64,000 nucleotides of DNA from the NCBI GenBank assembly GCA_027493935.1, contig JAOSJV010000011.1, positions 776,589 through 840,588 of the forward strand, read 5' to 3'. Positions within the stretch are counted from its first letter, which is position 1, and each line of letters opens with the position of its first letter. The notes below the pieces were generated by a model. It was given only the letters and a program-made list of their open reading frames with translations, was not told where the DNA came from and made no database searches. Below, piece after piece: positions 10,873-63,308 of this stretch. Source of the DNA: Burkholderiales bacterium (GTDB lineage: Bacteria; Pseudomonadota; Gammaproteobacteria; Burkholderiales; SG8-39). The position numbers were made by a program, and so were the translations under genes.

Positions 10873-11043
10873 TCAGTGCCAGGTGTACTGGACGAAACCC
10901 TGTGCCTCGAGGCGGTCGCGCTCCGCCTGCTGCCAGGCCACGATCTCGACCGCGTTCTGCTGCGGCAGCGCACCGCAGCCGGCGAGCACGAGAACCAAAG
11001 CAACCCTGGCCAGCGCGATGGCCTTCGGCGTACGGCCGTGCAT
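10873..11043 (-). CDS. Small lipoprotein
   Basis: MHGRTPKAIALARVALVLVLAGCGALPQQNAVEIVAWQQAERDRLEAQGFVQYTWH with lipobox VLAGC. Confidence 0.55.
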   Translation of the reverse strand: MHGRTPKAIALARVALVLVLAGCGALPQQNAVEIVAWQQAERDRLEAQGFVQYTWH

Positions 11044-11127
11044 CTGCTCTTCTCCTTCAGAACCGTCGCGCAGCGCCGATGCACGCTGCAGTCCGTCAAC
11101 ACGCGCCGGTGCCCCCATATTCCATGG

Positions 11128-12006
11128 TCATAGCGCGGGCGCGCCCGCGCCGCGCTGGCCCGGGCGCACCAGCTCCTGCAGGAACTCGCCGACCGCGCGC
11201 CAGAATTCGTCGCGGCGCTCGATGCCGTAGTGGCGTGCGCCCACCAGGGTCAGGGTGCGGTACGGACCGCCCCATGCGCTCGCCAGCGCGGCGCCGTTCT
11301 CCACCGGCGTGACGTTGTCGTTCTCGGCGAAGACGAACAGCGCCGGCGCCTTGATCGACGGCGCCAGCGCCGCCGAGTCGTAGCGCTCGCCGAGCAGCAG
11401 TCCGAGCGGCAGATACGGGTAGCGCTTGGCACCGATCGCGGCAAGGCTGTCGAACGGCGTGGCGAGGATCGCCGCGCGCGCCGGGCGCGTCGCGGCCACC
11501 TTGACCGCGACGTAAGACCCGAGGCTGCGGCCTAGCAGGACGATGTTCGCGGGGTCCACGTCGGGCCGCGACGCCGCGTAGTCGTACACGCGCCGTGCGT
11601 CGTCGACGACGACCGGCTCGGACGGCTCGCCCTCCGAGAGCCCGTAGCCGCGGTAGTTGACGAACAGCCAACCCCAGCCCTGCGGCCGGCGCGCCCGGTC
11701 GATCATCCACGACGTCTCGCGGCGCACCCCGCCAAACACGATGACGAGCGGGAACCGCTCGCCGCGCCGGGCGCTCGGCGGGTGCTTCAGCCACCCGTGC
11801 AGCGTGACGCCGTCCGCGGTCCCGAGCCTTACCTCCTCGAGGCCGTTTCCGTTCGCGGCGAGCGACGCGAGGTGCGCCGGGTCGGACGACCAAGGGCGGT
11901 AGAGCAGGCGCTGCTCGATCGGATCGAGCACGAGGCTGCAGCCCGCTGCCGCAAAGGCGGCGAGCGTTGCAACGGGATACAGCAGGCGGCGCATGCGCGA
12001 TTCCAC
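11128..12006 (-). CDS. Alpha/beta hydrolase lipoprotein
   Basis: FAAAGC lipobox; VNYRGYGLSEGEPSEP, IVLLGRSLGSYVAV nucleophile elbow. Confidence 0.85.
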   Translation of the reverse strand: MESRMRRLLYPVATLAAFAAAGCSLVLDPIEQRLLYRPWSSDPAHLASLAANGNGLEEVRLGTADGVTLHGWLKHPPSARRGERFPLVIVFGGVRRETSWMIDRARRPQGWGWLFVNYRGYGLSEGEPSEPVVVDDARRVYDYAASRPDVDPANIVLLGRSLGSYVAVKVAATRPARAAILATPFDSLAAIGAKRYPYLPLGLLLGERYDSAALAPSIKAPALFVFAENDNVTPVENGAALASAWGGPYRTLTLVGARHYGIERRDEFWRAVGEFLQELVRPGQRGAGAPAL

Positions 12007-12219
12007 GGGGCACCCCGAGAGACCGCTGCCCGAGGGCGAAGTTCGCTCCGCCCGGGCCGGTCAGCCCGGCGTGCGGATCATACGCCGCGCGGCTTGCCGT
12101 AGCGGCCGGCCGACCCGCCGCGGCGGGCGCACGGCGCGCCGCCCCCGGCGCGCGCGCGAGCGGTGGACCCGGCTCACCCGGGGACCGCGCGCGGGTGCGA
12201 ACCCGCCCGCGCGCACGGC

Positions 12220-12924
12220 CTAAACCGGCGCGACGAGCTCGGGGCCTTCGTTCCGCGCGTTGTTCACGCGCGTGCTGACCGGGTAGAACGCGAAGTCCGT
12301 CCGGGCGTGCTCGGCGATGAGCGCCGCGACGCGCGCCGCGTCAGTGAGGTGCGGGTCGGTCCAGGCCGCGAACGCGTCCGTGGGTAGCACCACGGGCATG
12401 CGATCGTGCACCTCGGCTGCCGGTCCGGCGGCACGGCGCGTCAGCAGCGCGCAGCTCAACGCGCCCTCGTCTACGCCGGGGGCGCGCCATAACGACATCA
12501 GCCCGGCGAAGCAGAACGGCCGCGCGTCGGCACGATGGATGTAGAACGGCTGCTTGAAGCGCCGCACCTCGCCGGTGGCGCGATCGACGTGCTCCGTCAC
12601 GCGCCACTCGTACCACCCTTCGGCGGGGACGAGGCACCGCGCGCCGCGGTAGGCCTGGCGCCACATCGGCTTGGCGGCCGCCTCCTCTGCGCGCGCATTG
12701 AACGCGAGCTTCGGCGGCGTCGCCTGCTTCCACCAGTGCGGGACGAGCCCCCAGCGCGCCCCGGCGAGCCCGAGCGCTCCGGTGCGCGAATCCGCGCGCA
12801 GCACCGGCACCGTCGCGGTCGGCGACACGTTGAACCGGCGCGCGAACGGGTTGCCGTCGTCGCGTCCGACGTGCCACTCGCGTTCGATCGCCGCGGCGTC
12901 CGGATGCACGTATCTGCCGCACAT
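12220..12924 (-). CDS. SRAP (SOS response-associated peptidase, YedK/HMCES) family protein
   Basis: Starts MCGRY; ARWGLVPHWWK, FNARAEEA, CLVPAEGWYEWR. Confidence 0.95.
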   Translation of the reverse strand: MCGRYVHPDAAAIEREWHVGRDDGNPFARRFNVSPTATVPVLRADSRTGALGLAGARWGLVPHWWKQATPPKLAFNARAEEAAAKPMWRQAYRGARCLVPAEGWYEWRVTEHVDRATGEVRRFKQPFYIHRADARPFCFAGLMSLWRAPGVDEGALSCALLTRRAAGPAAEVHDRMPVVLPTDAFAAWTDPHLTDAARVAALIAEHARTDFAFYPVSTRVNNARNEGPELVAPV

Positions 12925-13079
12925 GCGCCCGATTATAGGCGGACGCATGCATCCATCTCGTGCGGCGATCCGCGGCGGCGGCGCATCGGCGCCGGCGTGG
13001 CGGTGGTAGAGTTGACCGCGCGCGCTCCCGCTTGCGGGGTTCCCCGTCGGGGACGATCGAGACGCGTGCGCCCCCTGAG

Positions 13080-16000
13080 ATGACCGACGTACTCGAGCTC
13101 TTCCATCCCGCCGTCCGCGCGTGGTTCGGCGCCGCGTTTCCCCGCGCCGACGGCGCCGCAGATCGCGGCGTGGCCGGCGATCAAGTCGGGCCGCCACGCA
13201 CTCGTGGCGGCGCCGACCGGCTCGGGCAAGACGCTCGCGGCGTTCCTCGCCGCGATCGACGCACTGGTGCGCGAGGGCGTCGCGCGCGGGCTCGCGGACG
13301 AGACGCGCGTGGTGTACGTGTCCCCGCTCAAGGCGCTGTCGAACGACATCCAGCGCAACCTCGTGGGACCGCTCGCCGGGATCCGCGCGGAGCTCGCCGC
13401 GCGCGGCCTGCCCGAGGTCGAGATCCGCACGCTGGTGCGCACCGGCGACACGCCGCAGGCCGAGCGCGCGCTGATGCGCAAGCGCGCGCCGCACATCGTG
13501 GTCACCACGCCCGAGTCGCTCTATATTCTGCTCACCAGCGCGTCCGGGCGAAAGATGCTCGCCACCGCGCGCACCGTGATCGTGGACGAGATCCACGCGC
13601 TCGCGCCGAACAAGCGCGGCGCGCACCTCGCGCTCTCGCTCGAGCGGCTCGCGGCGCTCGCCGGTCCCGGCCTCGTGCGCGTCGGCCTGTCGGCGACGCA
13701 GAAGCCGATCGACGAGATCGCCCGCTTCCTGGTCGGCGACCGCGCCGACGCCGCCTGCGCGATCGTCGACACTGGCCACGCGCGCGCACGCGACCTCGCG
13801 CTCGAGCTGCCCGAGGCGCCGCTCGAGGCGGTGATGTCGGGCGACGCATGGCGCGAGGTGTACGACCGGCTCGCCGCGCTCGCGGCCGCGCACCGAACGA
13901 CGCTCGTGTTCGTCAATACCCGGCGTCTCGCCGAGCGCGCGGCGCGCCATCTCTCCGAGCGCCTCGGCGCCGAACGCGTGGCTGCGCACCACGGCAGCCT
14001 GTCGCGCGAGCTCAGGCTGGACGCCGAGCAGCGCCTGAAACGCGGCGAGCTCAAGGTGCTCGTCGCCACCGCCTCGCTCGAGCTCGGCATCGACATCGGC
14101 GAGGTCGACCTCGTCTGCCAGCTCGGCGCGACGCGCACGATCGCCGCGTTCCTGCAGCGGGTGGGGCGCTCGGGCCATGCGGTCGGCGGTCTGCCGCGAG
14201 GCCGGCTCTTCCCGCTCTCGCGCGACGACCTGTGCGAAGCGGCGGCGCTGCTCGACGCCACGCGGCGGGGCGAGCTAGACCGCGTCGCGGTGCGCGACAA
14301 GCCGCCTCGACGTGCTCGCGCAGCAGATCGTCGCCGAGGTCGCGCACCAGGAGTGGGGGGAAGTGGCGCTCTTCGCCCTCTTCCGGCGCGCGCATCCATT
14401 CCGCGCCCTCCACCGCGAGGAGTTCGGCGCGGTCGTACGCATGCTCGCCGAGGGGTTCAACACGCGCCGCGGCAGGCGTGCCGCGCTCGTGCACCGCGAC
14501 GCGGTGAACGGCGTGCTGCGCGCTCGACGCGGCGCGGCGCTCACCGCCGTGACCTCCGGCGGAACGATTCCCGACACCGCCGACTACGCCGTGGTGCTCG
14601 AGCCGCAGGCGCAGATCGTCGGATCGGTGAACGAGGATTTCGCGGTCGAGAGTATGGCGGGCGACGTGTTCCAGCTCGGCAACACGTCGTATCGGATCCT
14701 GCGCGTCGAGCGCGGCACGGTGCGGGTCGAGGACGCGAACGGCGCGCCGCCCGGGATCCCGTTCTGGTTCGGCGAGGCGCCGGCGCGCAGCCTCGAGCCT
14801 CGCAGTCGCTCGCGCGGCTGCGCAGGGAGATCGAGGCGCGCCTTCCCCTGTCCCGAGGGCCGGGACGGGGCTGCAACCGGTCCCTCCCCCTTCCAGCGCG
14901 AGGCGAGCAGCGAGGGTACTGCGTCGGCCGTCGCCTGGCTCGAGCGCGAGATCGGGCTCGAGCGCGCGGCCGCGGAGCAGATCGTCGAGTACTACGCAAG
15001 CGCGCGCGCGGCGCTCGGCGCGCTGCCGACGCTCGACACGGTGGTGCTCGAGCGCTTCTTCGATGAATCGGGCGGCATGCAGCTCGTCGTTCACGCGCCG
15101 TTCGGCAGCCGGGTGAACCGCGCGTGGGGTCTCGCGCTGCGCAAGCGCTTCTGCCGCAAGTTCAACTTCGAGCTGCAGGCGGCGGCGACCGAGGACGCGA
15201 TCGTGCTCTCGCTCTCGACCGCGCACAGCTTTGCGCTGGAGGAGGTGGCGCGCTACCTGTCGGCGCGGACCGTGCGCCCGCTGCTGGTGCAGGCGTTGCT
15301 CGATGCGCCGATGTTCACCGTGCGCTGGCGCTGGAACGCGGCGGTGGCGCTCGCGCTTCCGCGCTTTCGCGGCGGTGCCAGGTGGCGCCGCAGCGCCAGC
15401 GCATGGAAGCCGAGGACCTGCTGGCGACCGTGTTCCCCGACCAGGTCGCGTGCGGCGAGAACATCGTCGGCGATCGCGCGATTCCCGACCATCCGCTGGT
15501 CGAACAGACGATCGCCGACTGTCTGCACGACGCGATGGACGTCGCGGGGCTCGAGCGGCTGCTCGCCGGCATCGAGCGCGGCGCGATCGCCGTGCGCGCG
15601 TGCGATCTGACCGAGCCCTCGCCGCTTGCGCTCGAAGTACTTTCCGCGCGCCCTTACGCATTCCTCGACGACGCGCCGCTCGAGGAGCGCCGCACGCAGG
15701 CGGTCATGGCACGCCGGTGGATCGATACCGCGACCGCCGCCGACCTTGGCGAGCTCGACGTCGAAGCGATCCGCCGGGTGCGCGAGGAGATCTGGCCGGA
15801 GGCGCGCAGCGCCGACGAGCTCGCCGACGCGCTCGCCGACCTCGCGTTCCTGACCGATGCGGAGATCGCGGCCGGGCCGGACTGGCGGCGCCACGTCGAG
15901 GTGCTCGCTGGCGCGCGGCGCGTGACGCGCCTCGCATGCGCCGGCGGGGTCTGGGTAGTGGCCGAGCGGCTGCCGGAACTCGCCGCGGTGCTTCCTGCTT

Positions 16001-17460
16001 CAAGCTGCGAGCCGGAGATCGAGGCGCCGCCCGACTGCCGCAAGGCGTGGTCGCGCGAGGCGGCGCTGGTCGAGATCGTGCGCGACCGCCTGCAGGGGCT
16101 CGGGCCGACGAGCGCTGCCGGGCTCGGCGCGCCGCTCGCGCTCGCCGGCACCGAGATAGACGCCGCGCTCGCCCGGCTGGAGGCCGAGGGCACGGCGATG
16201 CGCGGGCGCTTCACGCCGAAGGCGACCGCGACCGAATGGTGCGACCGCCGCCTGCTCGCGCGGATCCACCGCTACACCGTCAACCGGCTGCGCGCGGAGA
16301 TCGCGCCGGTGGACGCGCGCGACTTCATGCGCTTTCTCTTCCGCTGGCAGCGCGTCGCGCCGGACACGCGCGTCGAGGGAGCCGACTCGCTCGCGGCAGT
16401 CGTGTCGCAGCTCGAGGGCTTCGAGGCGCCGGCGGCGGCGTGGGAGACCGAGGTCCTGCCTGCGCGCGTGAACGAGTACGACCCGGCATGGCTCGACGAG
16501 CTCTCGCTCGCCGGCCGCGTCGTGTGGGCGCGCCCGGCCGCGCCGCGCCTCGCGGGCGAGCGCCGGCCGAGCCCGGTGCGCACGACGCCGATCGCGCTCT
16601 TCGGTCGACGCCATTTCGCCCGGTGGGGGGCGCTCACGCCATCGGACGAAGGCATGGTGCCGGCGCCGCGAGCCGCCGCAGTGGCGGGATTCATCGCCAC
16701 GCACGGCGCATCGTTCTTCGAGGAGATCGTCGCGGGCACCGGCCTCCTGCGCACGCAGGTCGAGGAGGCGCTCGGCGAGCTTGTCGCGCTCGGCATGGTG
16801 AGCTGCGACAGCTTCGCCGGCCTGCGTGCGCTCCTGGTGCCGAGCGACCGTCGTCCGTCGCGTGCCACGCCGCGCCGGCGCCGGCGCAGCGCGCTCTACG
16901 GCATCGAGGACGCCGGTCGCTGGGCGCTCGTGCGGCGAGCGCGCCCGCCGGCCTCCGCGCCAGGGCGCGCCGAGGCCGCCCGGACCGTCGAGCATGTCGC
17001 GCGCACGCTGCTCACGCGCTACGGCGTCGTGTTCTGGCGGCTGCTCGAGCGCGAGGCCGGGTGGCTGCCGCCGTGGCGCGAGCTCCTGCGCTGCTATCGC
17101 CGCCTCGAGGCGCGCGGCGAGATCCGCGGCGGCCGGTTCGTCGCCGGCGTCGCCGGCGAGCAGTTTGCCCTGCCCGAGGCGGTGGGCGCGCTGCGCGAGG
17201 TGCGCCGCGCCGAGCGCTCCGGCGCGCTCGTGTCGCTCTCCGGCGCCGACCCGCTCAACCTGGTCGGCATCGTCACGCCCGGCGCGCGTCTGCCCGCGCT
17301 CACCGGCAACCGCGTGCTGTACCGCGACGGCGTGCCGATCGCGCTGCTTGCAGGCGGCGAGGCGCGGTTCCTCGAGGGGCTTGCGCGCGACGCCGAGTGG
17401 GCGGCGCGCAACGCGCTCCTGCGCCGTCAGGTGCCGGCGGCGTTGCAGTTTCTCGGCTGA
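13080..17460 (+). CDS. lhr: Lhr-type large DEAD/H helicase; about five apparent frameshifts
   Basis: [92 protein letters not shown]-terminal Lhr domains; pieces in three frames. Confidence 0.9.
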
Positions 17461-17531
17461 GACTGGCCGATGATCGCGTGAAGCGATCGAATCGTTTACC
17501 CTACGCGGACCGAACCGAAGGAGGAAAGCAC

Positions 17532-18200
17532 ATGGGCGAGAAGGTCACTTTCACGCGGCCGGACGGCAAGAATTGCACGGGGTACTACGTGGCGCCGGCG
17601 GCCGGCGCCAAGGCGCCGGCCATCGTCGTCATCCAGGAGTGGTGGGGGCTCAACGACCAGATCAAGGGCGTCGCCGAGCGGCTCGCCGCCGCGGGCTATC
17701 GCGCGCTCGTACCCGATCTCTACCGCGGCAAGGTCACGCTCGATGCGGCCGAGGCGAACCACCTGATGACCGGGCTCGATTTCAAGGATGCGGCGACGCA
17801 GGACGTGCGCGGCGCGGCGCAGTACTTGAAGAAGGCGAGCCAGAAGGTGGGCGCGATTGGCTTCTGCATGGGCGGCGCGCTGACGGTGCTCGCGGCGATG
17901 CACGTGCCGGAGGTCGACGCCGCATCGTCCTGGTACGGTGTGCCGCCGCCCGAGGCCGGCGATCCGACGAAGATCCGCATCCCGGTGCAGGGCCACTTCG
18001 CGCTCAAGGATGCGTTCTTCACTCCCGCCACGGTGGACGCGCTCGAGGCGAAGCTCAAGCAGGGCGACGTGACGCACGAGTTCCATCGCTACGACGCGAA
18101 CCACGCGTTCGGCAACGAAACCGGACAATACTATGATGCCGCCGCGACGAAGCTCGCGTGGCAGCGCTCGCTCGACTTCCTGGCGAAGCACCTCGGGTAG
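17532..18200 (+). CDS. Dienelactone hydrolase family protein
   Basis: [58 protein letters not shown]. Confidence 0.95.
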
Positions 18201-18213
18201 GGAGGGACGCCGA

Positions 18214-19194
18214 ATGAAGCGGCGCACGCTGGGCGGCCGGCTGGCCGTCGCCGAGATCGGCTACGGCTGCTTCGGGCTGAGCGGCGTCTACGGCGCCGCG
18301 GACGACGCGCAGTCGATCGCGGTCATCCGCAAGGCGGTCGAGCTCGGCGTCACGATGCTCGACACCGCCGATGCCTACGGCCCGTTCCACAACGAGGAGC
18401 TCGTCGGCAGGGCGTTGAAGGGCATCCGCGACAAGGTGGTGCTCGCGACCAAGTTCGGCCAGGTGCGAGAGCCCGACGGCTCGCGCACGATCTGCGGCAC
18501 GCCCGAGTACGTCCGCGTGGCGTGCGACGCCTCGCTCAGGCGGCTCGGCGTCGACGTGATCGACCTCTATTACCAGCACCGGGTCGACAAGACGGTGCCG
18601 ATCGAGGACACGGTCGGCGCGATGGCTGCGCTGGTGACGGCCGGCAAGGTGCGCCATCTCGGGCTGTCCGAGGTGGGGCCGGCGACGCTGCGTCGCGCCC
18701 ACGGGGTGCACCCGATCACGGCCGTGCAGTCGGAGCTCTCGCTGTGGAGCCGCGACGACGAGACCGATGTCCTGCCGGCGTGCCGCGAGCTCGGCGTCGG
18801 CTACGTCGCCTACAGCCCGCTCGGCCGCGGGTTCCTCACCGGTACGGTCACCGCGTCCGACGCCTTCGAGCCGCAGGACGTGCGGCGCACGATGCCGCGG
18901 TTCGACGCCGGAAACCTCGGCCACAACGTCGAGCTCGCGCGGCGGATCGGCGAGCTCGCGCGCGCAAAAGGCGCGACGCCGGCGCAGCTCGCGCTCGCGT
19001 GGGTGCTCGCGAAGGGGCAGGACGTCGTGCCGATCCCCGGCACGCGGCGCGAGGCGCGCCTGGTCGAGAACCTCGAGGCGGCCGAGGTTGCGCTGTCCGC
19101 GGCGGAGGTCGCGCAGCTCGAGGCCGCCGCTCCGATCGGCGCGGTGCGGGGCGACCGGTACGGCGCCTGGATGATGGGCACGATCGACAGGTAG
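18214..19194 (+). CDS. Aldo/keto reductase
   Basis: [50 protein letters not shown]. Confidence 0.95.
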
Positions 19195-50579: not shown

Positions 50580-52586
50580 ATGAACTCATTCAATAAACTG
50601 CGGCTGCCGGCAATCGCCGGGCTCGTTGCCGCGCTGGTGGGACACCCCCTCGTCGCTGCGGAGGAGGGCGGGGCGCTGCCGGAGCGGCCGCTGCTCGGCG
50701 ACATCACCGCACACGCCCGTCCGCTGCCGTACCCCATCCCGCGACCGTTCGCCGAGGGGGAGGCACCAGTCTTCAATCCGCACCGGCAGGACCGCGTCCT
50801 GCGCGACACCGGCGCGGCCGCCAGCGTCGCCGAGTCGCAGCGTGCGTTCAAGGTCGGCGGCGGGTACGGCGGGGCGGGCGATGCATGGGAGGCGGTCGGG
50901 CTCGGTACGCTCGCGCTCGATGCCGGCATGCTGCGGGCCGCCGTCGCGCGGCGCGCGATCGACGACTATCGCGACGGCGACGGGCGCACGACGCGCTTCG
51001 GGTACGACCGCGACACCGCGCAGCTCGGGCTCGCCTGGTTCCCCGCCGCCGGGCGGACGCTGCGCGCGAACGCGCTCTACGACGACATCGCCGATCTCGC
51101 GCTGCCGCTCGCCACCCCGACCGTCCGCAACGGCGTGCCGCTCATCGTGGGCTCCGGCGCCGATCCGCTGATGACGCGCCGCATCGCGGCGCGGTTCGGC
51201 TACGACGACACCACCGGCATCGCCGGCACCGCGCGCGTGCATCTTCGCGGCGGCGCGGTTGCGCTCGACCGCCGCGCGGACAACTTCACGCTGCGTCCCG
51301 CGCCGCCGGCGAACCGCGTGCAGAACCGGATGAGCGCGGACGTGTGGGATGCGGCCGGCTGGGCGGACTTCGCGCGCGGCTGGGGTGCGTTCCGGCTCGG
51401 CGCCGACGCGCTCGCCGACCGCCGCGACGGCGTGCGCCGCGGCGGCCCCAACGTCAACAACCTCGCGCAGATCACCGGCTTTCAGTCGCCCGGGTTCGAG
51501 TCGACGCGCTTCGGCGTGTTCGGCGAGGTCGCGACGGCGCCGTGGGCGGGCGCGACGCTCGCCGGCGCGCTGCGCTGGGAAACCCGGCGCGCGCGCATCG
51601 AACGCGCCGACCAGACGTTCGCCCTGCCCGGATTTGCGGGCACGCCGCGCACGCTCTACGCGAGCTACTACGGCGCCGGGCTGGATCTCGCGCCGCGCCA
51701 CAGCGCCCCGAGCGCCAAGCTCGAGCTGAAGCAGGCGATCGGCCCGGGGACCGAAGCGCACGTCTCGGTCGCGCGCCAGGCCCGGTTCCCGGAGTTCTTC
51801 GAGCTCTACTTCGCGCTGCCATCGTCGCCGCCGACGAACGTCCCGGCGGGTACGTCGAGCCGCCAGGTGGGCAACCCCGGGCTCGAGACCGAAATGCATC
51901 ACCGCCTGGAAGCCGGCGTCGTCGCCGCCGGTGCAGACTGGGTCGACTGGCGCCGCGTGCGCGGCAGCGCGGCCGAGCGGTTCGCCGCGCGCGCGTGGCG
52001 CGCGTCGTTCACCGCGTACGTGGACCGCGTGGACGATTTCGCCTCGCGCGACCGCGCGCGCGCTCAGGCGGGCGTGCTGCGCGCCGACAACGCGACCGTC
52101 TGGCGCAACGTCGATGCGCTGCTCGCCGGCGCCGAGGCGGAGTTGCAGTGGAACCTCACGCGCCACTTCTCGCTGCGGGCCGGCGTCTGGTGGCGCTGGG
52201 GCGAGAACACGACCGAGGACCGGCCGCTCTACGGCATCGCGCCGCTCGAAGGGGCGCTCGTCGCCGACTGGCACGACCGGCTCGGAACGGTCGGCACGTG
52301 GAATGCGGGCGCCAAGCTGCGCGGGGTCGCGCGCAAGTCGCGCGCCGACGACAACCCGGCGCTCGGCAGCGGCTACGACCCCGTCGACGTCGACGGATAT
52401 GCCCTCCTCGACCTGTACGCCGCCCTCCAGCTCTCGGACCGCGTGGCGGTGAGCGTCGGGCTCGACAACGTCCTCGACCGCACCTACGCGGACTTCAACG
52501 CATTCACCACGACCGACGAGACCGCACGGCTGCTCGCCAACGGACCGGGCCGCTTCGCCTGGATCCGCATCGTCGCCAACTTCTGA
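50580..52586 (+). CDS. TonB-dependent-receptor-type outer-membrane beta-barrel, apparently lacking the plug domain
   Basis: Signal peptide; PEFFELYFALP...GNPGLETEMHHRLEAGV; YALLDLYAALQLSDRVAVSVGLDNVLDRTYADF; C-terminal Phe. Confidence 0.85.
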   Translation: MNSFNKLRLPAIAGLVAALVGHPLVAAEEGGALPERPLLGDITAHARPLPYPIPRPFAEGEAPVFNPHRQDRVLRDTGAAASVAESQRAFKVGGGYGGAGDAWEAVGLGTLALDAGMLRAAVARRAIDDYRDGDGRTTRFGYDRDTAQLGLAWFPAAGRTLRANALYDDIADLALPLATPTVRNGVPLIVGSGADPLMTRRIAARFGYDDTTGIAGTARVHLRGGAVALDRRADNFTLRPAPPANRVQNRMSADVWDAAGWADFARGWGAFRLGADALADRRDGVRRGGPNVNNLAQITGFQSPGFESTRFGVFGEVATAPWAGATLAGALRWETRRARIERADQTFALPGFAGTPRTLYASYYGAGLDLAPRHSAPSAKLELKQAIGPGTEAHVSVARQARFPEFFELYFALPSSPPTNVPAGTSSRQVGNPGLETEMHHRLEAGVVAAGADWVDWRRVRGSAAERFAARAWRASFTAYVDRVDDFASRDRARAQAGVLRADNATVWRNVDALLAGAEAELQWNLTRHFSLRAGVWWRWGENTTEDRPLYGIAPLEGALVADWHDRLGTVGTWNAGAKLRGVARKSRADDNPALGSGYDPVDVDGYALLDLYAALQLSDRVAVSVGLDNVLDRTYADFNAFTTTDETARLLANGPGRFAWIRIVANF

Positions 52587-52602
52587 ATCCTCGGAGATCG
52601 CC

Positions 52603-53589
52603 ATGACTACACGCCGCGAGTTTCTTGCCGCCGCCGCCGCCGCGGCGCTGCTCGGCCGCGCGCGCCCTGCCGCCGCCGCCCCCGCGCCGCTTCCGGAGCT
52701 CGTGCTGCACGGGCCGCCCGCCGGCCCGTCGATCATCGCCGCGCAAGCGGTCGAGAGCGGCGCGCTCGCCGCGGTCGCGGAGCGCGTATCGTTCCGCGTC
52801 TGGAAGACGCCCGACGAGATGCGCGCCGGCTTCGCCTCCGGGAAGTGGGCGGCATCGATCGTGCCCACCTACGCGGCCGCCAACCTGTACAACCGCGGCC
52901 TGGCCGTGCGCCTGGTGAACGTGATGACCGAAGGGCTGCTCTACGTGATCGCCACCAATCCCGCCCTCACCTCGCTCGCCGCGCTGCGCGGCCGCGCGCT
53001 CGTGCTGCCGTTCAAGAACGACATGCCCGACCACGTGCTGCACAAGCTCGCCGCGGCCGGCGGGTTGACGCTCGGTGGCGACATCGCCGTGGAGTACGCC
53101 GGCACGCCGGTCGAGGCGATCCAGCTCCTGCTCGCCGGGCGGGGCGACGCCGCGCTCGTGCCCGAACCGGCCGCAACGGCGGCGGTGGTCCGCGGCATGC
53201 GGGCGGGCAAGAAGGTGCATCGCGCGATCGACGTGCAGAAGGCGTGGGCGGAGGCCTTCGGCGGCCCGGCCGCGATCCCGCAGGCGGGACTCGCGGTCTC
53301 GCAGGGCTTCGCGAGCGCGGCGGGCGAGCGTCTCGCCGTATTGCACGCGGCGCTCGTGGACGCGGCCGTGTGGGTGAACGCCAACCCCGCGAGCGCGGCG
53401 CGCGTGGCGGTGGCATATCTTGATCTCCCGGCGCCGGTGCTCGAGCGCTCGATCCCGTTCAGCAATCTGCGCGTCACCGCCGCCACCGAGCGCAAGCCTG
53501 CGCTAGACGCGTTCTTCGGGATGCTCGCGGAGCGCAGCCCCGCGATCGTCGGCGGCAAGCTTCCGGATGCCGGGCTCTACGCGCTGTGA
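52603..53589 (+). CDS. NitT/TauT-type ABC substrate-binding protein with Tat-like signal
   Basis: MTTRREFLAAAAAAALLGRARPAAAAP; NPALTSLAALRGRALVLPFKNDMPDHVLHKLAAAGGL. Confidence 0.85.
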   Translation: MTTRREFLAAAAAAALLGRARPAAAAPAPLPELVLHGPPAGPSIIAAQAVESGALAAVAERVSFRVWKTPDEMRAGFASGKWAASIVPTYAAANLYNRGLAVRLVNVMTEGLLYVIATNPALTSLAALRGRALVLPFKNDMPDHVLHKLAAAGGLTLGGDIAVEYAGTPVEAIQLLLAGRGDAALVPEPAATAAVVRGMRAGKKVHRAIDVQKAWAEAFGGPAAIPQAGLAVSQGFASAAGERLAVLHAALVDAAVWVNANPASAARVAVAYLDLPAPVLERSIPFSNLRVTAATERKPALDAFFGMLAERSPAIVGGKLPDAGLYAL

Positions 53590-54389
53590 TCGTGCGCGCC
53601 CTGGGCCGGCTCGGCCGCTACGCCTGGTCCGGCTGGGCCGGCCTCACGGGCCTGTGCTGCATCGCGGCAGCTTGGCAGGCCGGCCACGAGGCGTACGGCA
53701 GCTTCATCCTGCCGGCGCCGCTCGACACCGCGCGCGCGCTCGCCGCGCTCGCCGCCTCGCCCGAGTTCCTGCGGACCGCGACCGAGACCACCGGGCGCGC
53801 GCTCGCGGGCTTCACGCTCGCCGCGGTCGGCGGCAGCCTGATCGGGGTGCTCGCCGGCTACTCCCACGCCGCGATCCGCGCGGTGAAGCCGATCCTCACG
53901 GTCGTCCTCGGCGTGCCGCCGATCGCCTGGATCGTGCTCGCGCTGATCTGGTTCGGCTCGGGCGGCGGCACTGCCATTGCGACGGTGCTGATCGCGGCGC
54001 TGCCGATCGCGTTCGCCGGCGCGGCCGAGGGCGTGGCGACGCGCGACCGCGCGCTCGACGCGATGGCGCGCGCGTTCGGCGCCGGGCCGCTGCGCCGGTT
54101 CCGCTCGGTCGTGCTGCCGCACCTCGTGTCGCATCTGTTTCCGGCTTGGACGACGACGCTCGGCACGTCGTTCAAGGTGGCGGTGATGGCCGAGCTCCTG
54201 TCGAACGCGGGCGGCATCGGCGGCGCGCTCGCCGTCGCGCGAGCGAATCTCGACGTTGCCGACGCGATGGCCTGGGTGGTGCTCGTCGTCGGGCTGCTGC
54301 TCGCCTTCGAGTACGGCGTGCTGCACCCGGTGCGCGAGGAGCTCGAGCGCTGGCGCGCCGCCGGCGTGCCGTGGGGCGTCAAGCGATGA
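53586..54389 (+). CDS. NitT/TauT-type ABC permease
   Basis: GVLAGYSHAAIRAVKPILTVVLGVPPIAWIVLALIWFGSGGGTAIATVLIAALPIAF. Confidence 0.93.
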   Translation: MIVRALGRLGRYAWSGWAGLTGLCCIAAAWQAGHEAYGSFILPAPLDTARALAALAASPEFLRTATETTGRALAGFTLAAVGGSLIGVLAGYSHAAIRAVKPILTVVLGVPPIAWIVLALIWFGSGGGTAIATVLIAALPIAFAGAAEGVATRDRALDAMARAFGAGPLRRFRSVVLPHLVSHLFPAWTTTLGTSFKVAVMAELLSNAGGIGGALAVARANLDVADAMAWVVLVVGLLLAFEYGVLHPVREELERWRAAGVPWGVKR

Positions 54390-55126
54390 GGCTTGCGCTC
54401 GAGCGCGTCGGCCATGCCTTTCTGGGCCGCACCGTGCTCGACGACGTCTCGCTCGCGCTCGACGCGCACGAGACGGTGGCGATCGTCGGCCCGTCCGGCT
54501 GCGGCAAGACCACGCTGCTCGCGATCGCCGCCGGGCTGTTCGACCCGCTGAGCGGAGGCGTGCGTCGCGCCTACGCGCGCCACGCCGCGGTCTTCCAGGA
54601 ACCGCGCCTGCTGCCGTGGCGCACCGCACGCGAGAACATCGGCTACGGCCTGGAGGTGCGCGGCGTGCGCCGGCGCGCGCGGCACGCGATCGCCGAGCGC
54701 CTGGCCGAGGCGGTCGCGCTCGCGCCCGAGGACCTGGACAAGTTTCCGGTGGAGCTCTCCGGCGGGATGCGCCAGCGCGTGGCGTTCGCTCGCGCGCTCG
54801 CGATCGATCCGGAGGTCGTGTTCTTCGACGAGCCGTTCACCGCGCTCGATGTCGGCCTGCGCCGCGCGCTCCAGGACCTCGTGATCGGCAGCGCGCGCGA
54901 GCGCGGCTACGCCGCGCTCTTCGTCACCCACGACCTGCTCGAGGCGGTGCGCGTCGCGCATCGCGTGATCGTGATGGCGCACCGGGGCGGCCGGCTCGCC
55001 GGGATGCGCACCGTCGCCGACGCTCCCGGCTGGCGCGACGAGCGCACGATCTGGCAGACCGCCGAGGCATGGCGCACCGGCGATCCGCTCTTCGCGCACG
55101 TCTTCGGCGTCGAGGAGCGCGCGTGA
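54386..55126 (+). CDS. NitT/TauT-type ABC ATP-binding protein
   Basis: IVGPSGCGKTTLLAIAAGL, ELSGGMRQRVAFARALAIDPEVVFFDEPFTALD. Confidence 0.96.
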   Translation: MRLALERVGHAFLGRTVLDDVSLALDAHETVAIVGPSGCGKTTLLAIAAGLFDPLSGGVRRAYARHAAVFQEPRLLPWRTARENIGYGLEVRGVRRRARHAIAERLAEAVALAPEDLDKFPVELSGGMRQRVAFARALAIDPEVVFFDEPFTALDVGLRRALQDLVIGSARERGYAALFVTHDLLEAVRVAHRVIVMAHRGGRLAGMRTVADAPGWRDERTIWQTAEAWRTGDPLFAHVFGVEERA

Positions 55127-56343
55127 GCCAGGCGGCGCTCGGGCGCGCCGGCGCGGTCCACGGCGCGCTGCGCGCGCTGACGGTCGAAGGCTTGCGCCTG
55201 TTCTTCCCGCTCGGCGCGCTCTACGCGATGCTGATGCCGCTCGTCTGGGTCGCGGTCTACCGCTTTGAGCTACCGCTCGCGCGCGCGATTCCCGCCACCC
55301 AGTGGCACGCGCACGAGATGGTGTTCGGCGTGCTCTGCGCCGTGCTCGCGGGATTCCTCACCTCGGCGGTGCCCGAGTGGACCGACACCGCGCGGCGGCG
55401 CGGCCGCGCGCTCGGCCTGCTCGCGGCGCTGTGGCTGCCCGGCCGCCTGATCGGCCTCCTCGGCGCCGACGCGCTCGTCGTGCCGGCATTGCTGACCGAC
55501 GCAGCGTTCCTCGGCCTGCTGCTGTGGTATGCGGCGGAGCCGATGATCGCCAAGCGCTCCGCGCGCCACGTCTCGCTGCCCGCCTGGCTCGCAGTGCTGC
55601 TCGCCTGCGAGATCGCGGTGCGCATCGGGTGGCTCGCGGGCGACTGGGCGATCGCCGCGCGCGCGCTCCATGCCGCCGTGTGCGCGTTCGTGGTGCTCTT
55701 CGCGCTCGCGCTCGGCCGCATCAACGTGGCGGTGCTCAACCTCGCGCTCGACCCCTCGGGCGAGACGACGCCGTATCGTCCGCATCCCGGCCGGCAGAAC
55801 CTCGCCGCGGGCATGGTGGCGCTCTACATCGTCGCGGCGACGTTCGCACCGCAGTCCGCGGTAGCGGCGTGGCTGGCGCTCGCCGCGGCGGCCGCGTTTC
55901 TCGATCGTCTCGCGGAGTGGTTCGTCGGCCGCGCGGCGCTCGCGGCGCACGTCCTCGCGCTTGCGGCGGCCAATGCGCTCGCCGCGGCCGGCTTCGCCGC
56001 GATCGGTCTCGCCGGGCTCGGCGCGCCGATCGGACTCGCCGCCGGCATGCACGTGCTCACCGTCGGCGCGCTCGGCCTCGCGGTGCTGAGCGTGTTCAGC
56101 ATCGCCGGGTTGCGCCACACCGGGCGCACGCTCGTGCTGCCCTGGCAGGCGCGCGCGGCGCTCGCGCTTGTGATGCTCGCCGCCGCGGCGCGCGTCGTGC
56201 CTGGGTTGTTCGGTCTGGCGAGCGCAACGGGGAGTCACTACCTCCTCGCCGCGCTCGCTTGGAGCGTCGCCTTCGCCGTGTGGCTGCACGGCTACCTGCC
56301 GTACTTTCTCGCCCCCGCGGCGCCGGCGCGCGACCGGTGCTGA
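55123..56343 (+). CDS. nnrS: NnrS family heme-Cu/NO-related membrane protein
   Basis: LRLFFPLGALYAMLMPLVWV, ATQWHAHEMVFGVLCAVLAGFLTSAVPEWT, polytopic; GTG start overlapping upstream stop. Confidence 0.9.
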   Translation: MSQAALGRAGAVHGALRALTVEGLRLFFPLGALYAMLMPLVWVAVYRFELPLARAIPATQWHAHEMVFGVLCAVLAGFLTSAVPEWTDTARRRGRALGLLAALWLPGRLIGLLGADALVVPALLTDAAFLGLLLWYAAEPMIAKRSARHVSLPAWLAVLLACEIAVRIGWLAGDWAIAARALHAAVCAFVVLFALALGRINVAVLNLALDPSGETTPYRPHPGRQNLAAGMVALYIVAATFAPQSAVAAWLALAAAAAFLDRLAEWFVGRAALAAHVLALAAANALAAAGFAAIGLAGLGAPIGLAAGMHVLTVGALGLAVLSVFSIAGLRHTGRTLVLPWQARAALALVMLAAAARVVPGLFGLASATGSHYLLAALAWSVAFAVWLHGYLPYFLAPAAPARDRC

Positions 56344-57606: not shown

Positions 57607-60223
57607 ATGGCCGACAATCGAGACCACAGGGTTGTCTACGTTTCACATCCTGCAAGCGGCCTTGCACGGTCCAACTTTCCGATAGTGTGCCACGTAGCCG
57701 GTGGACGGATCGTCCGCTCGCTGCCGTTCCGCGTTCCCGAAGACGTCGCGCTCTACGAGATCAAGACCTCGCGCGGGGTCTTCACGCGGCCCCGCAAGGA
57801 AGTGCAGATGCCGCTCGCCTACGCCTGGAAGCGGCGCATCCACTCCGGAGCGAGGATCGACTATCCCCTGCTGCGCAACGATTGGCGCCCCGGCAATCCG
57901 AACCCGGCGACGCGCGGCAGCAGCGGCTACTCGCGCATCAGCTGGGAGCGCGCGCTCGACATCGTCGTCGGCGAGCTGCGCCGGGTCCGCGAGCAGTACG
58001 GCTCGATGGAGCCGGTGCTGGTGCAGGCCGACGGCCACGGGCAGAGCGGATACCTCCAGTCGATGCATTTCTGGGGGCACTATCTCTTCGACATGATCCA
58101 CGAGCGCCTCGGCTGGGGCTGGTGGACCCAGCAGGTGCGCAACCCGGACAGCTGGGAAGGCTATTACTGGGGCGCCAAGCACGTCTGGGGCTTCGACGAG
58201 ACCCTCGGCGAGCCGCCGCAGGACGCGGTGTGGGACGACGTGCTCGAGCACGCCGAGATGGTCGTTTTCTCGGGCAACGACCCCGAGGCGACCGGCCTCG
58301 GCATGTCGGGCTCGATCGCGGTCGAGATGCCGAAGTGGCTGAAGCGGGCGGGCATCAAGATCGTAGCGATCTCGCCGAACCTCACCTACGCCGCTGCGGT
58401 GCACGCGGACAAGTGGATTCCGATCCGCCCCAACACCGATTCGGCGCTGTACCTCGCGCTCGCGCACACGTGGATCGTAGAGGGGCGCTACGACAAGGAG
58501 TATGTCGCTACCCACACGGTCGGCTTCGAGGAGTTCCGGCGCCACGTGCTGGGCGAGGACGACGGGCTTGCGAAGACGCCGGCGTGGGCGCAGTCCGTCA
58601 CCGGCGTGCCTGCCTCCACGATTCGGGCGCTCGCCCGCGAGTGGGCGGGCAAGCGGACGAGCCTGTCAGTCTACTTCGGCGGGGCGAAGATCCGCGGCAC
58701 CCTCGCGCATCTCACCGGGCGGCTGGAAGCCTACGCGCTCGCGATGCAGGGCATCGGCCGCCCCGGACGGCAGTTCCTGCGCACCGGCGCGCCGTCCTTC
58801 TACAAGCGCTCGCTCGCGCAGGTGCCGCGCCATCCCGACGTGGACAGGCGCGGCATCGCCATGAATCCCATGATCGAGTACGCGATCGGCAAGGGACCGA
58901 AGTCGCCGCTGTTCATCCCACGGACTCTCGCGACCGAGGCGCTCCTGGGGCGCGCGATCGAATGGCGCGGGACGTCCGCCGCGCTGGCGAAGACCGAGGA
59001 CCAGTTCAATCGCTATCGCTTCCCGCCGACCGACGGTCACCCCGGCATCCGGGTGGTGTGGAACGAAAACGGCAGCCAGCCGGGCAGCTGGGGCCACGGC
59101 CTGCGGTGGCTGGAGGCGCTGCGCAGTCCGCGGATCGAGTTCGTCGTCGGGATCCATCCGTGGTTCGAAAACGATATCCCGTTCTCGGACCTGATCCTGC
59201 CCGCGCAGACGCACTACGAGCACGAGGACCTGATCGCGGTGCAGCGGAGTGAAATCCTGGCGATGTTCTACCAGGAGCGCGCGATCGAGCCGGTCGGCGA
59301 GTCGAAGAGCGACTACGAGATCCACCGCATGATCGGGCGGCGGCTCGGGTTGGACGACGTGTTCCCGCCCGCCGACGAGTGGCTGCGCAAGGCGTACGAG
59401 CAGACGCTGGCGTCGACCAAGCTCGGCATCACGTGGGCGCAATTCAAGGAGCGCAAGTCGGTCGTCTACGACTGCCCGACGTGGGACGAATGGGTGGAGA
59501 TCAAGCGCGCGCACGGTTACGGGCCGCACGATGGCGGGCTGCACTGGTTCTGGACGCAGGGCGGCGGCCTGGAGACGCCTTCGGGGAAGATCGAGTTCGT
59601 GTCTTCCCGTATCGCGGCGCTCGACGCCGACAATGCCGAACGGCCGCCGCTCGCGACGTGGATGACGCACGGCGAGCTGGCGGGCTCGCCGAAGTCGCAG
59701 GCGTATCCCCTGACGGTGATGTCGAATCATCCGAAGTACCGGTTCCACGTGCAGGGCGACGACATCGACTGGATCCGCGAGATCAGCAAGGTTCGCGGGC
59801 CGGACGGCTACCTGTACGAGCCATGCTGGATCCACCCCCACGACGCCGCGAGCCGTGGCATCGCAAACGGCGACGTCGTCGTGGTGCACAACGAGCGCGG
59901 CGCGGTGCTCGTCGGCGCCGTGGTGACCGAGCGGATCATCCCCGGCGCGCTCAGCATCGAGCACGGTGCCGTCATCGATCTCGCGACGCTGCATGGACGC
60001 GTCGTCGACCGGGGCGGATGCATCAACCTGATCGCGCCCTCGCCGCAGGAGAAATACGCGGCCGGCGGGGGAGATCAAGGTGCCGGAGATGAACGTGAGC
60101 GGCTATCTGGTGGAGGCGGTCGGGGTCGACGTGTCGGAGATCGTCGCCGGCGCCGGGGTGCCGCGCGGTACGGCGGCTCCGGCCGAGGCCCCGGCCCGGC
60201 GCGAGAAAGCGACCGAGCCGGCG
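57607..60223 (+). CDS. DMSO-reductase-family molybdoenzyme large subunit, pyrogallol-phloroglucinol transhydroxylase/resorcinol hydroxylase-like; frameshift near 60065
   Basis: No N-terminal Fe-S Cys motif; NPDSWEGYYWGAKHVWGFDETLG, VVFSGNDPEATGLG, VGESKSDYEIHRMIGRRLG, DRGGCINLIAPSPQEKYAAGG; C-term ...EIKVPEMNVSGYLVEAVGVDV in second frame, end approximate. Confidence 0.85.
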
Positions 60224-60228
60224 GCAAG

Positions 60229-61061
60229 ATGAGCCGCAAGACCTTCCTCGTCGACGCCGGGCGGTGCACTGGGTGCAGCCTGTGCGTCGTCGCGTGCAAG
60301 GACGAGCACGTCGGCGCCGGTCATGCGCCCTGGACCGGGCCGCAGCCCGACACCGGGCACTTCTGGATCGACGTCCGCGGAATCGAGCGCGGCCGGATTC
60401 CGCGGGTGCGGATGACGCACCTGCCGGTCATGTGCCAGCACTGCGCGAACGCTGCTTGCGTCAAGGCCTGTCCCGAGCAGGCGATCAAGCGGCGCGACGA
60501 CGCTCTGGTGTGGATCGATTCCGCGGTCTGCACCGGCTGCGGGCTCTGCCGCGAGGCGTGTCCCTACGGCGTCGTCTACATGAACGCCGAGCTCGGCGTC
60601 GCGCAGAAGTGCACGGGCTGCGCGCACCTCGTCGACGAGGGCTCCCTGCCGCGGTGCGTGGATATCTGCCCGCACGAGGCGATCGTGTTCGCCGACGATG
60701 CGGACGAGGTCGTGCGCGAAGCCAGGCGCGCCGATGCGCTCGAGGTCTACTGTCCCGAGTACCGCGCCGAGCCGAGGGTGCTGTGGAAGGGCTGCCGCGG
60801 CCATGGATCGCGGGCACCGTGATCGACGCAGCGAGTGACGAGGTGCTCGCCGACGCTGCGATCACCGCGCTCGATCTCGTCGACGACGCGTCGGTCACCG
60901 TGCGCTCGGACGCGTTCGGCGACTTCTGGGTGCGGGGGATGGCGCCGGACCGCAAGTACCGGGTCGCGATCGGCAAGGCAGGCTACGAGGCGTTTCTGGC
61001 GATCGTGACGACGACCGGCGACCAGGACCTCGGCTGCGTCGAGCTGAAGCGGACGCGCTAG
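60229..61061 (+). CDS. Ferredoxin-type Fe-S small subunit with C-terminal beta (carboxypeptidase-regulatory-like) domain; frameshift near 60795
   Basis: CTGCSLCVVACKDEHVG, CQHCANAACVKACPEQA, CTGCGLCREACPYG; second frame WIAGTVIDAASDEVLADAAITALDL...DFWVRGMAPDRKYRVAIGKAGYEAFLAIVTTTGDQDLGCVELKRTR. Confidence 0.88.
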
Positions 61062-61390: not shown

Positions 61391-62800
61391 TCACTCGACC
61401 GGCCAGCGCAGCTTGACGATCCGTTTCATGTCGAGCCGTCCGGCGATGCGCAGCGCGGCCGCGCGCACCTCGCGCAGGATCTCGTCCTGGTCGATCCGGG
61501 TCGGGCGTCCGTCGCGCACCACCTGCTCGCCGGCGACGAACACGTGCTTCACCGTGTTGCCGGTGGCGCTGTAGACGAGGTTCGAGACCGGGTTGTAGAG
61601 CGGCTGCCATTCGGGCACGTTCGCGTCGAACAGCACGAGATCGGCTTCCTTGCCGGTCTCGACCGACCCGATCCGGTCCGCGAGCCCGGCGCCGCGGGCG
61701 CCGTTGACGGTCGCCATTTCGAGCGCGTGCTCGGGCGGCATCACGCGCGGGTTGATGCGGACCTCCTTGTAGCCGCACGCGCAGTAGCGCATCTCCTGGA
61801 CCATGTCGACCGAGCCGGAGCAGGCGTGATCGGAGCCGAGGCTGACGTTGACGCCGAGCGCCATCAGCTCGGGCAGCATGCCGACGGCGATGTTGCCGTA
61901 GCCGTTGTGCAGCGAGGACGAGGGCGCGCACACGAGCGTCGGCCTGCGCCTGGCGAGCAGCGCGACCTCGTGCGGCTCGAGCCAGCCGGAATGGACCAGC
62001 AGCATGCGCTCGTCGAGGACGCCGAGCGACTCGAGGCGCTCGATCTCCGGCTTGCCGTGCTGCGCGACGCTCGAGTCGTGGGTGCTGTAGGAGAAGCACG
62101 CGTGCGTCTGCAGCGTGGCGCCGTGTTTCTCCGCGATGCGCTTCAGGCCGAAGATGAGCTCGTCGGAGGCGTTGTTCAGGCCGCGGAACGAGGCGCTGGC
62201 CGCGAGCCGCCCGCCGTGCGCGCCGTGGTAGCGCGCGAAGAGCTCCTCGGTGCGCTCCAGGCAGTGCGCGGTGGTCTCGATCATGCTCTCCGGCAGCAGG
62301 CCCATGACCGACTTGGTCTTGTCGAAGCTCGAGCGCGCGATCACCATGCGCATGCCGCTCGCGGCGATCGCCTTCACGGTCGCGTCGGGGTGATAGTTAC
62401 CCGGATCGGTGAAGCAGGTGACGCCGTGGCGCAGCAGCTCGATCGCGGCGAGCGAGGCGCTGACGTAGACGTCCTCGCCGGTCATCGCGCCTTCGTAGGG
62501 ATACATGTGGTCGAACAGGAACGACTGGGCGTTCGCCTCGTCGGCCAGCCCGCGCGACATCTGGAACGAGGAGTGCAGGTGGTTGTCGACCAGCCCCGGC
62601 GTCGCCACCATGCCGCTGCCGTCCAGCGTCCGGTCGGCGCGCCAGGTGCGCCCCAGCTCGTCCGACTTGCCGACGGCGGCGAACTTCCCGTCCTTCACCG
62701 CAATCGCGGCGTCGCGGATGACGCGGCGCTTCGCATCGACGGTGATCAGCCAGTCGATGCCATGCAACAGGAGGTCGGCCTGGCGCGCGACGCTGCTCAT
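61391..62800 (-). CDS. Chlorohydrolase/TrzA-AtzA-like amidohydrolase (S-adenosylhomocysteine deaminase-like)
   Basis: VATPGLVDNHLHSSFQMSRGLADE, LQTHACFSYSTHDS, VSLGSDHACSGSVDMVQEM, IGSVETGKEADLVLFD. Confidence 0.93.
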   Translation of the reverse strand: MSSVARQADLLLHGIDWLITVDAKRRVIRDAAIAVKDGKFAAVGKSDELGRTWRADRTLDGSGMVATPGLVDNHLHSSFQMSRGLADEANAQSFLFDHMYPYEGAMTGEDVYVSASLAAIELLRHGVTCFTDPGNYHPDATVKAIAASGMRMVIARSSFDKTKSVMGLLPESMIETTAHCLERTEELFARYHGAHGGRLAASASFRGLNNASDELIFGLKRIAEKHGATLQTHACFSYSTHDSSVAQHGKPEIERLESLGVLDERMLLVHSGWLEPHEVALLARRRPTLVCAPSSSLHNGYGNIAVGMLPELMALGVNVSLGSDHACSGSVDMVQEMRYCACGYKEVRINPRVMPPEHALEMATVNGARGAGLADRIGSVETGKEADLVLFDANVPEWQPLYNPVSNLVYSATGNTVKHVFVAGEQVVRDGRPTRIDQDEILREVRAAALRIAGRLDMKRIVKLRWPVE

Positions 62801-62831
62801 CGTCCGCCCCGCGCGGGCCGGCCGCGGCTGC

Positions 62832-63308
62832 TCACTTGTTGTCCCCGACGTAATTCAGCTTGTCGCGGCACTTGAGCTCGATCAGGACGTTCTCCTCTGC
62901 GGACTCCTCGCACAGCATCGACCGGTGCGTGATCCCCTTCGGGATGACGATCATCTCACCCTCCCGCAGGACCACCGTGCCCATTTCGGTCTCCCACCGC
63001 AGCGCACCGCGCACGCAAATGATGACCTCGTGGTAGTCGACGTTGCGGTGCCAGAACCCCATGTCCTCCTTCGAGCGCTTGGAGACGTCGATCTTGATCG
63101 GCGCCGAGTCGAACAGCCGCAGCGGCGAGCCGTCCGCCTTGTTGTAGTTCGACGGCTGGAACTTCGGGTCGAAGATGCTCAGGTAGTGAAACAGCTCCTT
63201 CGCCTTCAGCACCCCCAGGTTCTCCACCGGATTGGCGTTCACCGCGAGCTCGACGTTAGTCCCGTCGATCGTGACGACTTCGCGCAGCGGGGCCTTCGGC
63301 AGCGACAT
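62832..63308 (-). CDS. Cupin domain protein (aromatic dioxygenase-like fold)
   Basis: MGFWHRNVDYHEVIICVRGALRWETEMGTVVLREGEMIVIPKGITHRS. Confidence 0.85.
   Translation of the reverse strand: MSLPKAPLREVVTIDGTNVELAVNANPVENLGVLKAKELFHYLSIFDPKFQPSNYNKADGSPLRLFDSAPIKIDVSKRSKEDMGFWHRNVDYHEVIICVRGALRWETEMGTVVLREGEMIVIPKGITHRSMLCEESAEENVLIELKCRDKLNYVGDNK

Follow-up and report, generated by a model that had tools for sequence, protein, structure and literature searches.

In the window, which is the whole stretch of 64,000 nucleotides of DNA that was analysed, we found a gene pair for a two-subunit enzyme that, by sequence and modelled fold, is a member of the AthL/RhL family (pyrogallol-phloroglucinol transhydroxylase and resorcinol hydroxylase). 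Our reading is that the pair encodes a cytoplasmic Mo (or W) enzyme of a separate branch of this family, branch B, which would carry out a net redox hydroxylation with water or the reverse reaction, and we put the probability of this reading at about one half. On the sequence comparisons the pair belongs to the family, but it fails as AthL proper on three tests, namely clade, Tyr404/Tyr560 and the three Fe-S clusters.

Table 1 Features of the gene pair in the window
Feature	Position	Strand	Remark
Large subunit	57607..60232	+	Catalytic, Mo/W-bisPGD, AthL/RhL (Ser-ligand DMSO reductase) family
His144	58036..58038	+	Aligns with AthL His144; invariant in branches A and B; within the branch-B motif DGHG
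NPDSWEG: Asp181, Ser182 (predicted Mo ligand), Trp183	58141..58161	+	Align with AthL Asp174/Ser175/Trp176
Small subunit, iron-sulfur	60229..61061	+	Start overlaps large-subunit stop by 4 bp (ATGA)
Sixteen Cys for four [4Fe-4S] clusters, all present	60265..60669	+	Residues 13/16/19/23, 69/72/77/81, 101/104/107/111, 128/131/143/147
C-terminal beta domain (CarboxypepD_reg, PF13620, transthyretin-like)	60798..61058	+	Same place as in the transhydroxylase small subunit

The large-subunit frame was open from its ATG to about 60062, and its true end is the TGA at 60230-60232; compared with the locus of a congener (genome G001, locus L044), the frameshift was one extra G in the G-run at 60063-60067. 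The small subunit starts from the ATG in the overlap and has one base missing near 60792. In the congener both genes were intact (874 and 280 aa, at L044:8448-11072 and 11069-11911), with the same 4-bp overlap and the same neighbours. The two pairs were 92% identical, and 89% at the nucleotide level over the whole pair; besides the two indels, the sole DNA gap between them was at the very 3' end of the pair. The differences were mostly synonymous, and the large-subunit substitutions by codon position were 44/30/145, which means that 145 of 219 fell in the third position. Since the congener is intact, the nucleotide identity is 89%, there is one other gap and the third position is favoured, both indels look like assembly errors and not decay, and the gene pair looks maintained by selection. 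The frameshifts that the first-pass annotation had proposed to repair come down to one indel per gene.

The PDB sequence search with the large subunit gave pyrogallol-phloroglucinol transhydroxylase (4v4c_A) as the best match over nearly the full length (E=4e-120, 406 bits), and identity to AthL was about 35%. Scores were lower for DMSO/TMAO reductases (173-226 bits), thiosulfate reductase (105), acetylene hydratase (73), formate dehydrogenases (at most 61) and arsenate reductase (40). The AlphaFold2 model of the large subunit had a pLDDT of 89 and a pTM of 0.90, and the fold search with it ranked 4v4c_A first (TM 0.85/0.80). For the small subunit the best PDB match was 4v4c_B (E=8e-34), which was also first in the fold search with the model of the intact congener protein (pLDDT 76, pTM 0.65); the TM was only 0.55, which fits a lower-confidence model with uncertain domain placement. 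The NCBIfam scan gave nothing above the cut-offs, and the Pfam AthL domain-1 model matched the large subunit below its cut-off. Polysulfide, arsenate and formate enzymes, which the first-pass annotation had named as the placement that would speak against its proposal, were ruled out by sequence and fold scores, and the Asp and Ser did align with the Mo site. So the resemblance to a transhydroxylase claimed earlier holds for both subunits by sequence and by fold, but that the pair is a transhydroxylase is unlikely, because it falls outside the AthL clade, has nothing in place of Tyr404 and Tyr560 and has four Fe-S clusters where three would be expected.

The large subunit has no Cys motif at its N-terminus, as had been remarked on first inspection. 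A scan of it and of 15 other subfamily members turned up no Tat motif, which agrees with the cytoplasmic location suggested earlier. The N-terminus of a 45% relative from Candidatus Terraquivivens (L066) contains RRDFLK, which is Tat-like, and export is therefore possible for some branch-B enzymes.

A maximum likelihood tree of 61 sequences and 818 columns (LG+G4+F, ultrafast bootstrap, rooted on DMSO/TMAO reductases) placed the window protein in branch B (41 sequences, support 99), sister to and outside the AthL branch A (17 sequences, 100). The subfamily around the window protein (16 sequences including it) was supported at 100. The expected grouping with AthL apart from the DMSO/TMAO reductases was recovered (A+B, 100), but a position inside the AthL clade was not. 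Branch B carried the motif pattern DGHG...NPDSWEG; residues specific to the branch are Asp142, Arg178, Trp485, Trp495 and Asn522. Among the matches listed, subfamily members 51-92% identical to the window protein came from Beta-, Alpha- and Deltaproteobacteria and archaea: 5 of 98 genomes of the window's betaproteobacterial family had the subfamily, and it also occurred in Rhodospirillaceae/Alphaproteobacteria and Deltaproteobacteria MAGs and in records of Nitrososphaerales, Nezhaarchaeota (two copies), Methanomethylicota, Bathyarchaeota and Thermoprotei. Misbinning of MAG contigs is unlikely as a general explanation of the archaeal members, because they come from several lineages and separate contigs, one of more than 1 Mb with two copies. 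Among the matches listed, the remaining branch-B members, at 39-45%, came from Dehalococcoidia/Chloroflexi, Desulfobacteraceae, Moorella, Sporomusa, Gordonibacter, Adlercreutzia and others. Phylum-wide and order-wide searches of 399 genomes each, with the best two candidates per genome scored, gave no further close relatives. One protein 81% identical to that of the window comes from a record, Rhodospirillales MAG Arabian11 (L064), that bears the label of a different class; this could reflect either a wrong label or horizontal transfer.

The residues around Mo and substrate in 1TI6 we take to be His144, Asp174, Ser175, Trp176, Tyr404 and Tyr560 (AthL numbering). The NPDSWEG of the window protein aligned residue for residue with the identical motif of 4v4c_A, so the proposal that its Asp and Ser lie at the Mo site is borne out as far as an alignment goes. 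In a 99-sequence alignment, His144, Asp174, Ser175 and Trp176 were kept in the window protein and nearly all relatives, but neither Tyr404 nor Tyr560 had a counterpart in the window protein or in any branch-B sequence. The active-site comparison suggested by the first-pass annotation thus came out for His, Asp and Ser but not for Tyr. The outgroups DmsA and TorA were without the His/Asp/Trp set of the AthL site. Two impressions from a 20-sequence alignment were dropped: a replacement of His144 by Gly, since the 99-sequence alignment shows this His to be conserved, and a conserved Tyr152, which is absent as a conserved position in deeper alignments.

The earlier description of the small subunit as ferredoxin-type clusters followed by a C-terminal beta domain was confirmed, with four motifs and then the CarboxypepD_reg domain ending GDQDLGCVELKRTR; taken by itself, this domain resembles transthyretin-like carboxypeptidase D domains. 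The Fe-S census covered 85 small subunits (14 of the subfamily, 52 other branch B, 19 AthL branch). All 16 Cys were present in 14 of 14 subfamily members and in 34 of the 52 other branch-B proteins, 43 of which kept at least three of Cys81, 101, 104 and 107, but none of the 19 AthL-branch proteins kept any of these four. In the ferredoxin motif pairing of the DmsB/NarH type, these positions make up one cluster, so AthS would have lost one whole cluster. Transfer of OH between phenols needs no full Fe-S wire and electron exchange does; the full four-cluster wire therefore favours net redox chemistry over such transfer, but four clusters are the ancestral state for these subunits, so that their retention does not prove electron export. 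The same cluster as in AthS was also lost in the branch-B small subunits L067, L070, L074, L075, L079, L097, L111, L112 and L132, from acetogens, Peptococcaceae and gut Coriobacteriia, apparently independently.

We infer the Mo ligation, substrate class, direction and electron carrier of the window enzyme as follows. A phenolic or related cyclic substrate would sit at Mo-Ser182, where His144 and Asp181 would provide acid-base catalysis; water-derived oxygen would be added to a ring carbon, or in reverse removed as water; and a soluble carrier would receive two electrons by way of the small subunit's four [4Fe-4S] clusters. As the host is equipped for anaerobic aromatic catabolism, we consider hydroxylation the likelier direction, with the reverse next. 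Its genome encodes a bcr-type benzoyl-CoA reductase and has 22 Molybdopterin-domain matches, and at another locus (L041, G000:C1:658001-677000, 11029-18590) it has an AthL-branch large subunit (frameshifted in the assembly) with its small subunit, followed by another molybdopterin enzyme, this one with a Cys motif at its N-terminus, and by a UbiD-family decarboxylase on the opposite strand, a possible gallate/pyrogallol-type cluster. These genes make it probable that the host degrades aromatics anaerobically and has a separate enzyme in the role of the classical transhydroxylase.

An all-against-all ORF comparison of 16 loci gave no third gene conserved with the pair; besides the two subunits themselves it picked up anti-sense shadows and, in three of the loci, a TctC receptor. 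No substrate clue was found from conserved neighbours, and substrate and direction cannot be read from the sequence, as the first-pass annotation had said of the substrate. Some relatives lie among possible aromatic-catabolism genes, which speaks for an aromatic substrate: FAA hydrolase, Amidohydro_2, AMP-ligase and acyl-CoA dehydrogenase-like genes (L054); BKACE, FAD enzyme, 2-hydroxyacid dehydrogenase and cupin (L048); UbiD decarboxylase (L049); and FAD monooxygenase and TctC (L045). Archaeal loci had a TorD/NarJ-like chaperone and aldehyde ferredoxin oxidoreductase, the latter near two copies. Against a phenol count the lack of a conserved neighbour and the genes next to the pair in the window, an HtrA-like protease, a TRZ/ATZ amidohydrolase and a cupin, which form no evident phenol pathway. 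The TRZ/ATZ-type amidohydrolase (below all NCBIfam cut-offs) and the small cupin, at 61391-63308 on the minus strand, had their place beside the pair conserved in the congener only. At 50580-56343 the window has an outer-membrane-receptor-like protein, an ABC transporter permease and ATPase, a putative binding protein and then NnrS (PF05940), suggesting a physiology linked to nitric oxide or denitrification.

Acetogens and gut Coriobacteriia, for which reductive chemistry is more natural, also have branch-B members, and this counts against hydroxylation. A rather unlikely alternative is a reductive dehydroxylase that would use this site, with electrons from the four clusters, to take off an aromatic or allylic hydroxyl in the form of water. 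The four-cluster wire would suit it, as would the relatives in Sporomusa, Moorella, Dehalococcoidia, Gordonibacter, Adlercreutzia and anaerobic archaea, and the aldehyde ferredoxin oxidoreductase near two archaeal copies suggests low-potential electron traffic. But catechol dehydroxylases are closest to acetylene hydratase and apart from pyrogallol transhydroxylase (PMC7028382), whereas the window protein scored 406 bits with AthL and 73 with acetylene hydratase, and the benzoyl-CoA reductase of the host is aromatic-catabolic.

It is improbable that the pair acts as a true transhydroxylase on another polyhydroxybenzene, with OH passed from one phenol to a second and no net redox change. No solved structure is nearer than AthL, the pair retains His144 and the DSW motif, and the C-terminal beta domain is common to both, but the Tyr404 and Tyr560 positions are missing, the window pair keeps four clusters where every AthL-branch small subunit examined lost the same one, and the AthL-branch copy near the UbiD decarboxylase is a separate one. 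We equally doubt that the pair is the orthologue of the resorcinol or alpha-resorcylate hydroxylase of Azoarcus/Thauera (RhLS/DbhLS), which overlaps with our preferred reading and adds a name and a substrate to it. RhL is reported to be a Ser-ligand, cytoplasmic net hydroxylase (PMC10100899), and a four-cluster wire would fit. However, 74 and 64 genomes of two families that bear benzoyl-CoA reductase gave weak matches only (at most 38%); the matches L138, L139 and L140, from those two families and a third, were all three of the AthL branch; and among the gene calls beside the pair no benzoquinone or benzenetriol (hydroxyhydroquinone) dehydrogenase genes were recognised. An S- or N-oxide reductase (DMSO/TMAO/biotin sulfoxide type) is very hard to believe, since these are the next closest relatives but the pair is far below every NCBIfam cut-off, has His144, Asp and Trp of the AthL site in place of the outgroup residues, and has an Fe-S partner and no Tat signal.

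To our knowledge, pyrogallol transhydroxylation and resorcinol/resorcylate hydroxylation are the only two activities of the AthL/RhL family, and we know of no characterised branch-B member. Returning to net redox hydroxylation or its reverse as the preferred reading, branch B as a whole may be a large class of enzymes, so far unrecognised and present in bacteria and archaea alike, that hydroxylate or dehydroxylate aromatics anaerobically and pass electrons through four clusters, with the sediment Chloroflexi 'pyrogallol hydroxytransferase' homologues as misnamed members; this is a tentative proposal at less than even odds. Branch B, with sediment Chloroflexi, sulfate reducers, acetogens, gut Coriobacteriia and archaea, would then be a sizeable pool of oxygen-independent phenol chemistry, and the Fe-S census offers a simple testable rule for transferases versus redox enzymes. 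Sediment Chloroflexi homologues have been named pyrogallol transhydroxylases (PMC3971608, PMC4959651); the Chloroflexi and Dehalococcoidia sequences found here, which may not be the published genes, fall in branch B. At least six subfamily loci were found here in archaeal records, whereas a published survey had zero archaeal members of the RhL/PgtL group (PMC10100899).

Among known systems, AthLS of Pelobacter acidigallici (PDB 1TI6 family, 4v4c) is the best match for both subunits. Like the window pair it is a two-subunit cytoplasmic Mo/Fe-S enzyme with NPDSWEG and His144, without an N-terminal cluster and with a C-terminal beta domain in the small subunit. Unlike AthL, the window protein lies in a separate branch (99 versus 100), has DGHG where AthL has SHHxWGNxGY and has no counterpart of Tyr404 and Tyr560, and its small subunit has four [4Fe-4S] clusters against three in AthS. 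RhLS of Azoarcus anaerobius is reported as a Ser-ligand, cytoplasmic AthL relative with net hydroxylation (PMC10100899). The AthL-branch proteins L025-L040, L156 and L157 (host family; Burkholderia and Salipiger plasmids) share the fold family and the large-small gene order with the window pair, and the host-family copies are 49-57% identical to AthL; unlike the window pair, they keep Tyr404 and mostly Tyr560, and their small subunits lost one or two Fe-S clusters. L156 (Salipiger plasmid pPABY2) and L157 (Burkholderia stagnalis plasmid), with large subunits of about 990 aa, are pairs in catabolic clusters (FAA hydrolase, VOC, acyl-CoA genes) from organisms usually grown with oxygen. The DMSO/TMAO reductases (DorA, TorA, MtsZ) have the Ser-ligand bis-MGD fold in common with the window protein, but they are mostly single-subunit enzymes without the His/Asp/Trp set, and their substrates are S- and N-oxides.
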